Below are positions 18,896 through 22,240 of a DNA stretch of 64,000 nt, piece by piece. The stretch is from positions 1,055,015-1,119,014 of the forward strand of contig JACQXA010000004.1 in the NCBI GenBank assembly GCA_016208975.1, written 5' to 3'. The notes under the pieces are model-generated. The model saw only the letters and a program-made list of their open reading frames with translations. It was not told the DNA's origin and did no database searches. The DNA comes from Nitrospinota bacterium (GTDB lineage: Bacteria; Nitrospinota_A; UBA7883; JACRLM01). Both the position numbers and the translations under genes were made by a program. Numbering within the stretch: the first letter of the stretch is position 1; every line of letters begins with the position of its first letter.

Positions 18896-19525
18896 TCAGG
18901 CGTTCTCTTCAATGATGGCAAGCTTTTTAAGCCTGACCATGGCCATTTTCACCTTGGACGTAAACCGCCACTGAAGCTCGCCACCTTGCCTCAATTCATC
19001 CATCTTGGCCGGGCCCAGGTTATAGGCCTCCAGGGCCAGCGACAGGTTCCCGTATCTGCGAATCATCTTGGCCAGGTAATACGAGCCTATCTGCAGGTTG
19101 GTGTCCACATCGTGCAAACTGGCGGCCTTTTTGCTGGACATGGATAACTCCTCAGCCAGGTACTGGGCCACGAAGGGGCGAATCTGCATAAGCCCCTTGG
19201 CGCCCACGCTGGAAACAGCGCCTCTGTCGAATCCGCTTTCAATCTCTATAAGCGCCAGGAGCAAATAAGGGTCGTGCCCGTCTATTCTGCTGTATCTGGA
19301 CACCGAACGGGCGATAAGGCCCCTTTCCTCTTCTGATAGATCGCCAGCCTTGGTCTGCAACACCTTTAAAAGGGTGTCCTCGGGAGGCGTCTTTTGGAGC
19401 CGGTCTAAAGCCCGGTCATACCTGGCTTCGTACATGGATGACTCATTGGCCGCTACCAGCCCTGCCAGTACCGTCGTGAACAGGCAGACGAGGAGAGACA
19501 AAGGAAAAGCTATTCTGATTATCAT
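18896..19525 (-). CDS. Lytic transglycosylase (SLT domain)
   Basis: A 209-residue protein with a hydrophobic N-terminal signal (IAFPLSLLVCLFTTVLAGLVAA) and a goose-type SLT domain. The catalytic Glu is in ALIEIESGFDRGAVSSVGAKGLMQIRPFVAQYLAEEL, with the GAKGLMQI motif behind it. DTNLQIGSYYLAKMIRRYGNLSLALEAYNLGP is the second family block. It cleaves the glycan strands of murein to 1,6-anhydromuropeptides in the periplasm. No lipobox Cys is present. It may serve cell-wall turnover or insertion of envelope machines; no direct neighbour tells which. Confidence 0.88.
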   Translation of the reverse strand: MIIRIAFPLSLLVCLFTTVLAGLVAANESSMYEARYDRALDRLQKTPPEDTLLKVLQTKAGDLSEEERGLIARSVSRYSRIDGHDPYLLLALIEIESGFDRGAVSSVGAKGLMQIRPFVAQYLAEELSMSSKKAASLHDVDTNLQIGSYYLAKMIRRYGNLSLALEAYNLGPAKMDELRQGGELQWRFTSKVKMAMVRLKKLAIIEENA

Positions 19526-19804
19526 GCTTGGCCTCGCTTTCCAGTTGGGGGGTTGATAATGGTTGGAACGGTTCTTGTACTACGTTTGCGCGGGACGCTT
19601 AACTGAGGGTCTTAATACTGTTTCATAATTAATAATGAGTTCAAACTATACTGGCCCAAAGGCATGAAGTCAACGATTATACGGCGCAAAGTTTGATAAC
19701 GGCATATAATACAATATGATAAAATTTATGTGGGTGGATTGGCGGGTTGGATGCCCCTGTCAAATCGTTGGCGTTGGAAGACCTTTGGGTAAAATCGGAG
19801 TGTC

Positions 19805-22071
19805 ATGATCGTCAAATGTCCGAGATGCTCGGCGCGTTATAAAATTGACGCCCAGACCATCCCTGATGAGGGGATGTACGCCAAGTGCGCCAAGTGTGAG
19901 AATGTTTTTTTCGCCCGGAAACGTTCCGACGAAGAGGTGGCCCGTCTCCGGGAAAAACGGAGGAAGGGGCCGGAGCTTCACACCCCCACCGCCACCCCGG
20001 AGCCAACCCGGAAAGAATCCCGGGTTACAGCGCCAGAACCCGTGCCTGCCGAATCGGGCGTAGCGCCACAGAGCGCAAGAGAAACAGATTATCAATCAAC
20101 GGGTTTAGAGGAAACCGAGCGCGAGGTTTCTCCAAACGCCCCAGAAATGGAAGCCATTTCAGCCAGCGAAGAGCCTGTTAGCCCCCTTTCTCAGGACGCC
20201 ATAGAAGCGTTGATGTCCGCTAGCACGCCCAAACCGGAACCAGCCAAGCCGGAACCCGCTGGCCCCCTGGGTCAGGATGACATAGCGGCGATTCTGGCCG
20301 CCAACGCCCCGAAACCCGAACCGGTTAAGGAAACCCCGTCATCGGGTGTGATGTCGCAGGATGATATTGAAGCCCTGTTATCGGCCAACGCTCCCAAGCC
20401 GGAACCCGCTGGCCCCCTGGGTCAGGATGACATAGCGGCGATTCTGGCCGCCAACGCCCCGAAACCCGAACCGGTTAAGGAAACCCCGTCATCGGGTCGC
20501 AGGATGACATTGAAGCCCTGCTGTCGGCCAACGCTCCCAAGCAGGAACCCGCTCCGGCCCCGGCCAAGGAAGAGCCAGCGGGCGCCATGTCCCAGGATGA
20601 CATTGAATCCCTGCTCAGCGCTAACAAACCCCTGGATATCGATCTGGATAAAACGCCAGTGGCGGTTTCCCCAACTCGCGGGGTTCAGGATGATATAGAC
20701 GCTTTACTGGCGGATAACGCCCCAGGTCATCTGGAAAAAGCTTCAGGCGCCAAAGCCGCAACATCCCAGCAGGACGAGATTGACGCCCTGTTGATGTCCG
20801 CTTTGGGCAAACCGGCGCCAGAGCCCACAGCGCCACCCCCGGGTAAAGAGAAAAAAGAGGGGCAAATCATTTCCCAGGACGACCTGGACGCCCTTCTGGC
20901 CAAGCCAGTAGCGGCGGTAGCCGAAGAAAAGAAAAAACCCGACGAGCTGGTATCCCAAGACGATCTGGACGCGCTTCTTTCAGGGATGGGCGCATCAACT
21001 GTTGAACCGGCCGCCACAGAAGCCGCCCCAGCCGAAGAAGGGCTTATATCGCAAGATACGCTGGACGCCATCCTTATGGAGGCCCAGCATGGCGATATCG
21101 AAAAGGCGGCGGAATCCATAGCCCCGGCGTTCCAGGGTGAACACGACGACGATCTGGAAAAGCTTCTGGCCGGTGGGGAAGATTCATTGGGAGAAGCCCT
21201 TTTCGATGGCGGGGCCAAGGCTGTGTCCCAGGCTGAACAATCTCTGGATGAGATGCTCTCTTCAGATGAAACTTTAATGGCGGTGGCTCCGGATCCCGGG
21301 TTTCACGAGCCGGGCGATGAAACCACCATTTCCGCGCCCAGGCCTTTCGCCATGGGAGCGGCCCATTTACCGGAAGAAGAACATGAGGAACACGAAGAAA
21401 CCGCCAGAAAAGCCTTCAAACTACCCTCGTTCGTTACCGCCATTCCCGGCAAAATAAAAGAGGCGATGGGCTGGCTGAAAGGAAAAATACCGGCCATTCC
21501 GAAAATCTCCCTGCCGTTCATAAAAACGGCCTTGGCCAAACTGCCGCCGAAAATGGCGGGGGTTGTGGCGGGTTTGGCCGGAGCCATGGTTCTTGGCGCA
21601 TTGGGTGGCGGTTACTGGTTCTTCTTCGGCGGCTCGGAACCGGAGTCTGCCCAAGTGGCCCAGCTTGAAAAGGGCTCTACGCCAGAGGGTGGCGAGCTTG
21701 GCAAGGAAGGGGCCAACGCGCCTGCGGCTCCGGTAGTAGCGCCGGTGTCGGTGGACGCCGGAAGCGGCCCCATGGTGAAATTCTCTGTTTACCTGCCGGT
21801 GGAGTTCGACATGGAGGCGTCCCGCGTGATGAACATGGACGTGGAGCTGATATTCGATTCGGAAACCATGGCGGGCATAGTCCGTCAACGGCTGTTTTTC
21901 ACCTCCACCACCGTGGAGAAGTTCATAGACACTTTCTTTGAAGACAAGTTCTACGAGGAAACGGTGTTCGTTCAGGACAAACTGGAGGAATACCTGGCCC
22001 AAAACCTGAAAACCGTGGAGCAGTTCGCCGGATTAAAAGACGTGCGCCTCACAAACTTCAACCTGAACTGA
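19805..22071 (+). pseudogene. Frameshifted zinc-ribbon / FliM-motif-repeat / FliL-like protein
   Basis: The reading frame starts at ATG 19805 and breaks at about 20498, then continues in another frame to 22071; restoring 7 bases would give about 757 residues. Residues 1-40 form an MJ0042-type zinc ribbon (CPRC...CAKC). Then come eleven copies of a motif like SQDDIDALLS in an Ala/Pro/Glu-rich linker, the same motif as the FliM N-terminus that binds phosphorylated CheY. Near the end, a transmembrane helix (AGVVAGLAGAMVLGALGGGY) leads into a ~100-residue FliL-like domain ending DVRLTNFNLN. The break is a 7-base deletion at the end of a 102-base direct duplication. No ribosome-binding site supports a separate downstream start at 20587. 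It could be a real inactivated gene, a phase-variable locus or an assembly error. Confidence 0.75.
20246..20497 (+). repeat. 102-bp exact direct duplication
   Basis: Bases 20246-20347 and 20396-20497 are identical over 102 positions, offset by 150. Each copy encodes a PLGQDDIAAILAAN unit. After the first copy the sequence runs GTGATGTCGCAGGATGA, after the second it runs straight into CGCAGGATGA, a loss of GTGATGT. Exact identity inside an otherwise diverged repeat array suggests recent slippage or unequal exchange. Confidence 0.9.
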
Positions 22072-22089: not shown

Positions 22090-22240
22090 GGTAGTGTCCC
22101 AGTTTGAAAGTACAGGGGAGATTCTTCACTTACGCCCAGAATGGCAATATAAAAGCCGTTGATAACATTGTCATCATGAGTGAAGCGCAAGCGAAGTGAA
22201 GGATCTGTCTATTATTTGAGATTCAAACTGGGACACCACC
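22090..22240 (+). mobile_element. MITE-like fold-back element, copy C
   Basis: A 151-bp copy in the same orientation as copy A. Both ends are intact: GGTAGTGTCCCAGTTTGAA and its inverted partner ending GGACACCACC. Flanking octamers cgcggcgc and catggcgc agree at 6 of 8 bases (last five identical), which may be an eroded 8-bp target duplication. It lies between the frameshifted repeat gene and gatB. Confidence 0.85.

Follow-up and report, generated by a model that had tools for sequence, protein, structure and literature searches.

Both motor switching and flagellar number are controlled by proteins that recognise the short N-terminus of FliM, and FliL forms rings around the stator units. The N-terminal helix of FliM is bound by CheY and is a docking site of CheY-P (PMC11528121), and FlhG, the ATPase of flagellar number and placement, acts on FliM/N through this same N-terminus (review PMC12826062). 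The gene described here, which we call the array gene, repeats a FliM-like peptide about a dozen times and ends in a domain that is predicted to have the fold of FliL. It lies in the window, by which we mean the whole stretch of 64,000 nucleotides of Nitrospinota DNA that was analysed, and its features are as follows.

19805..22071, + strand: array gene, split over two reading frames by a single frame change at ~20480-20500 (overlapping ORFs)
19805..19912, + strand: MJ0042-type zinc ribbon, CxxC...CxxC (Pfam Zn_ribbon_4, TIGR02098)
20189..20215, + strand: motif 1, SQDAIEALM
20270..20296, + strand: motif 2, GQDDIAAIL
20354..20380, + strand: motif 3, SQDDIEALL
20420..20446, + strand: motif 4, GQDDIAAIL
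20478..20503, + strand: frame change within a near-duplicate repeat unit (from ORF frames)
20497..20523, + strand: motif 5, SQDDIEALL (second frame)
20590..20616, + strand: motif 6, SQDDIESLL
20683..20709, + strand: motif 7, VQDDIDALL
20767..20793, + strand: motif 8, QQDEIDALL
20872..20898, + strand: motif 9, SQDDLDALL
20953..20979, + strand: motif 10, SQDDLDALL
21049..21075, + strand: motif 11, SQDTLDAIL
21142..21168, + strand: degenerate 12th copy, HDDDLEKLL
~21553..21627, + strand: single membrane helix (hydropathy), flanked N-terminally (cytoplasmic side) by a lysine-rich segment
21745..22068, + strand: FliL-fold (SPFH-like) domain, expected to be periplasmic (AlphaFold, Foldseek)

The open reading frame at 19805-20698 (+) overlaps another, in a different frame, that is open from ~20480 to 22071 (+), and when the gene is read through the frame change it encodes about 757 residues; the coordinates 19805-22071 and the frame-corrected product of 757 residues given in the original prediction both agree with this overlap. 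The parts follow in the order MJ0042 zinc ribbon, peptide array, one membrane helix and a C-terminal domain of about 105 residues. The N-terminal MJ0042 zinc ribbon that had been proposed is confirmed by Zn_ribbon_4 (E=7e-12), by TIGR02098 (38.5 bits, cut-off 20.9) and by two CxxC pairs. The cytoplasmic part of the protein is long and apparently disordered. We infer this disorder and the membrane topology, as we do the location at the motor, the client and the effect of the protein that are proposed below.

The window protein carries 11 strict FliM-type peptides and the degenerate twelfth one, which bears out the eleven FliM-like motifs that had been claimed. Among the strict copies, Q and D of the core are found in 11/11, A in 10/11 and the last L in 10/11, and the flanking columns are 4-40% identical. 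A degenerate pattern of 23 bases that encodes Q-[DE]-[DE]-x-D-[AS]-x-[LF], run on the host's own 2.97-Mb genome, gave six matches, four in the array gene, one at the FliM N-terminus and one in an apparently spurious ORF, and the reversed-control pattern gave none in the same genome. Since the genome-wide matches are confined to these places and the reversed control gave 0, the array motif is not chance. The strict tandem motif was found in 3 of 385 genomes, each time in the array gene, and again the reversed control gave 0. The FliM of the host starts MSQVLSQEEVDALLRG, in which the peptide reads LSQEEVDALL, and the array peptides are of the LSQxEIDALL type that is the sequence criterion of the FliM docking peptide. 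FliM domains had no significant match in a Pfam/NCBIfam scan of the window protein. In many homologues the array motif drifts from that of FliM (SDIDAIF, DLDGLM), and going by these sequences the drifted motifs may differ in affinity for the reader of the FliM site, or the client may be another protein.

The FliL-like domain that had been seen by eye stood by fold and not by HMM. Pfam FliL (PF03748) did not match the window protein at E<=10 and NCBIfam likewise gave no significant FliL match; the best PF03748 score in the family, E=0.073, was not significant, hhalign of the C-terminal domain against the FliL of the phylum gave a weak E=0.13, and a PDB sequence-profile search with this domain gave nothing useful. 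An AlphaFold model of the domain was made from a 16-sequence alignment (pLDDT 84.5, pTM 0.76), and the top 11 PDB matches of this model in Foldseek were all FliL, from three species, with E from 1.5e-4 to 1.2e-3 and TM from 0.62 to 0.73. The structures matched were 6AHP/6AHQ, which we take to be Vibrio FliL, 7SGN of Helicobacter and the Campylobacter motor 9HMF. The next matches were stomatin-type SPFH domains, which are known fold relatives of FliL (PMC10127578). Thus, the C-terminal domain is predicted to have the FliL periplasmic fold while the sequence profiles stay non-significant for the window protein. The absence of a FliL profile match had been named beforehand as a result that would speak against the domain, and for Pfam this is literally what was found; we judged it to be outweighed because of the fold match. 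A second, separate FliL-family protein of 213 aa (E=2.4e-9) is encoded in the same genome (C4:1676831-1677121, L071), about 2 kb upstream of paired CheW-domain matches (1679215, 1679776), and many relatives have similar FliL2 copies.

In a homologue that was assigned outside the phylum of the window, that of genome G315, Pfam FliN_N (PF16973) matched four stretches (DEDMWAKAFEEQ) with E=9.7e-12, and FliN_N in the homologue of G023 had E=0.0014, which is below the cut-off, as was Pfam FliL in the G315 homologue with E=0.004. FliN_N was absent from the window protein in the Pfam scan. The array of G315 repeats D-L-D-G-L-M at a spacing that equals that of E-I-D-A-L-L, and the FliN of G315 itself does not carry the W motif. 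On sequence grounds, that a single family carries peptides of both switch proteins of the C-ring would point to imitation of the switch and not to chance. Near the G315 array gene, beyond the transglycosylase-like gene described below and two genes away, is a gene that by eye resembles the N-terminus of FimV/HubP (L158:9311-10291). Elsewhere in G315 an ORF is built of near-identical repeats of ADNRSHRIVGRTRDSSLLNPGSLSKM (L155:8685-9227).

Homologues with a named record come from MAGs whose titles read Nitrospinota, Nitrospinales or Nitrospinaceae and, in a few cases, Nitrospirae. The sample from the phylum of the window was 24 genomes, 18 of which had FliM. The C-terminal domain was encoded in 16/24, and G010, where an N-terminal piece lies at a contig end in the matching gene neighbourhood, was counted as the 17th carrier. 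The array gene was therefore found in 17/18 genomes with FliM and in 0/6 without FliM; the one genome with FliM in which it was not detected, G020, is a fragmented assembly. G022, one of the FliM-less genomes, is probably flagellated because its genome is incomplete and its FlhF is over the cut-off, and when it is recounted as flagellated the figures become 17/19 and 0/5, with a Fisher p=5e-4 that is uncorrected for kinship, the absences of the array gene representing two or three lineages. In G007, G008 and G011 there were 11-15 CheW matches each, FliM, FlhF and FliL had none over the cut-off, and the array gene was absent. Tracking of chemosensory systems by the array gene was rejected on the basis of these CheW-rich non-flagellates, and therefore it is the flagellum that the gene follows and not chemosensing. 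A C-domain profile run over 385 genomes gave one further homologue, G315, which also has FliM, and the family has so far been found in Nitrospinota and one other lineage. Orthologues in organisms without CheY-type proteins, which would have told against the original prediction, were not seen among the Nitrospinota carriers as judged by FliM and CheW-type genes, nor in G315 as judged by FliM alone. The array gene is real, conserved and linked to the flagellum, and it has, very probably, a flagellar function.

The gene order in the window, with the neighbours named by eye, is dksA, a reverse-strand SLT transglycosylase-like gene, the array gene, gatB and rsgA. The array gene is 53 kb from fliM and outside any che cluster. 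The following features lie beside it or recur in the window.

18896..19525, - strand: divergent, syntenic SLT-type lytic transglycosylase-like gene (by eye)
19564..19579, + strand: sigma-54-like element TGGAACG-N4-TTGTA, ~240 bases upstream of the array gene
22090-22240, and ~2944, 7913, 28474, 33972, 58209, 60353 and 63446: intergenic repeat copies, the other seven 92-96% identical to that at 22090

A similar sigma-54-like element is present at a similar upstream position in many flagellate homologues, and when compared with shuffles in a post hoc test it gave P of 0.003-0.04 in six genomes and weaker values in others, so that as a sequence element it is suggestive only. The intergenic repeat, of which there are eight copies in the window, is about 150 bases long and MITE-like, with 15-base terminal inverted repeats (GTGTCCCAGTTTGAA). 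In G006, a non-flagellate genome that is 99% complete, dksA-SLT-gatB-rsgA is intact but for the array gene, which is absent from its place between SLT and gatB. The original prediction is thus supported in part: the co-occurrence, this empty site in a non-flagellate and the FliN_N peptides of the deeper homologues all link the gene to the flagellar motor, and binding of CheY by the array and a role as a sink are proposals.

How the protein might work follows from its parts, and we lean towards the reading that it is a flagellar-motor-associated docking scaffold with a FliL-fold anchor and multivalent C-ring docking peptides. By analogy with FliL, the periplasmic domain and the membrane helix would anchor it at the motor, the cytoplasmic part would display about a dozen FliM-N-terminus-type peptides beside the C-ring, joined in deeper relatives by FliN-type ones, and the zinc ribbon is probably an additional protein-docking module. 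The multivalent array would capture whichever protein normally binds the FliM N-terminus, and CheY-P captured there would serve as a local reservoir or a competitor and thereby shape switching. Judged by its peptides, the array probably docks a FliM-N-terminus binder, and because the FliM N-terminus docks CheY-P and FlhG, the array should hold one of them at the motor. If such a binder is docked, CheY would be the one that we expect on balance, and FlhG would be possible with clearly less probability. CheY-P would be the most likely client, both as the classical ligand and because holding it in a multivalent reservoir is a simple mechanism, and FlhG is the main rival, a serious one because of the HubP precedent, the flhF-flhG genes in the genome and the FliN-type peptides. 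More specifically, and as a tentative proposal, the protein could be a membrane-anchored multivalent switch decoy whose tandem FliM peptides, with FliN peptides in relatives, lie next to the stator and, with respect to CheY-P or FlhG, compete with the C-ring, buffer it or pre-load it.

The same peptides could serve a different end if the protein were a HubP-like landmark or a C-ring assembly or counting factor, with the array recruiting or titrating FlhG and thereby setting flagellar number and place, and with the periplasmic domain marking the envelope site. FlhG works on FliM/N via the FliM N-terminus (PMC12826062), flhF and flhG, the latter with the DQAxxLR helix, lie in the fli cluster of the host genome, HubP is laid out in broadly the same way and interacts with FlhG (PMC8789113), the FimV-like gene of G315 is two genes from its array gene, and FliN-type peptides are more easily explained by a C-ring assembly factor than by a CheY sink alone. 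However, HubP/FimV are not homologous to the array protein as far as tested, LysM was without a match, the periplasmic part of HubP comes first, and in monotrichous species FlhG binds FliM and not FliN (review PMC12826062), and on the whole we hold this reading to be unlikely. Were the array just an acidic, low-complexity spacer of no specificity, with a convergent likeness to FliM, the protein would matter through its FliL domain only, as a third stator accessory of FliL type. This would agree with repeats that expand and drift freely between species and with FliL, which works without such an array on a cytoplasmic part of 2-28 residues (PMC10127578). A mere spacer is hard to reconcile, though, with Q and D that are invariant and A and L that are nearly so over the 11 copies while the linkers vary, with a motif that is common to FliM genome-wide, and with the FliN-type peptides, which are an independent motif from a second switch protein, and we consider it quite unlikely.

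The neighbourhood and the frame change bear on two further alternatives. The SLT gene is the divergent neighbour at every flagellate locus whose flank was inspected, except in G023, and is so in G315 as well, which could mean that the array protein is an envelope scaffold working with the lytic transglycosylase, for example in opening peptidoglycan for the flagellum. Yet SLT is kept in G006, where the array gene is gone, and in the non-flagellate G021, where it adjoins a 565-residue zinc-ribbon protein (L141:5489-7183) that has a C-terminal hydrophobic segment and neither a FliL domain nor a tandem array. Because it is kept in non-flagellates, SLT is probably not part of the array system; as a functional partner it was rejected, and the scaffold of this kind is highly improbable. 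The frame change at ~20480-20500 might be taken to mean that the window copy is a dead pseudogene, but its two halves are still open and homologous with no further disruption, the homologues across Nitrospinota (561-1591 aa) are uninterrupted, those that run through the array having no frame change, and the change sits in a near-exact repeat, which is an easy place for assembly errors. It could be a sequencing error in this repeat or real, and a dead gene is very unlikely.

A membrane protein that repeats the FliM peptide about a dozen times would lend itself naturally to buffering, amplifying or counting, and the decoy proposal, if true, implies a level of motor control or of flagellar counting that is not known in model bacteria. 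The peptide array is also a ready tool that could be moved into laboratory bacteria to probe the local supply of CheY-P or FlhG against switching or flagellar number, and the gene gives a further flagellar component to a phylum whose cell biology is little studied.

The original prediction knew of no described protein with this architecture, and our literature search found none, nor anything relevant on the motif string or on tandem FliM peptides as a CheY sink. Each part is known by itself, their combination is new, and the family is undescribed as far as we found. GltJ and the zinc ribbon-DUF3426-type proteins have, like the array protein, an N-terminal MJ0042 ribbon, a short-motif linker, one membrane helix and a periplasmic part; they are not known to have a FliM-like array or FliL fold. 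The array protein shares with FliL a single membrane helix followed by a periplasmic domain of the same fold and is tied to flagellated genomes, but its cytoplasmic part is of >500 residues compared to 2-28 in FliL (PMC10127578), it adds the zinc ribbon and the peptide array, sequence profiles do not join the two, and the host's own fliL sits beside fliM whereas the array gene is outside the flagellar operon. With the FliM N-terminal segment it shares the 9-residue core (SQxE/D-I/V-D-A-L-L) but has 11-12 such peptides in tandem, is a membrane protein and has no FliM body. Finally, HubP/FimV resemble it in having an acidic repetitive cytosolic region, one membrane helix, a periplasmic domain and a flagellar link, whereas the array protein is not homologous to them as far as tested, has no LysM in the Pfam scan and has the other membrane orientation.
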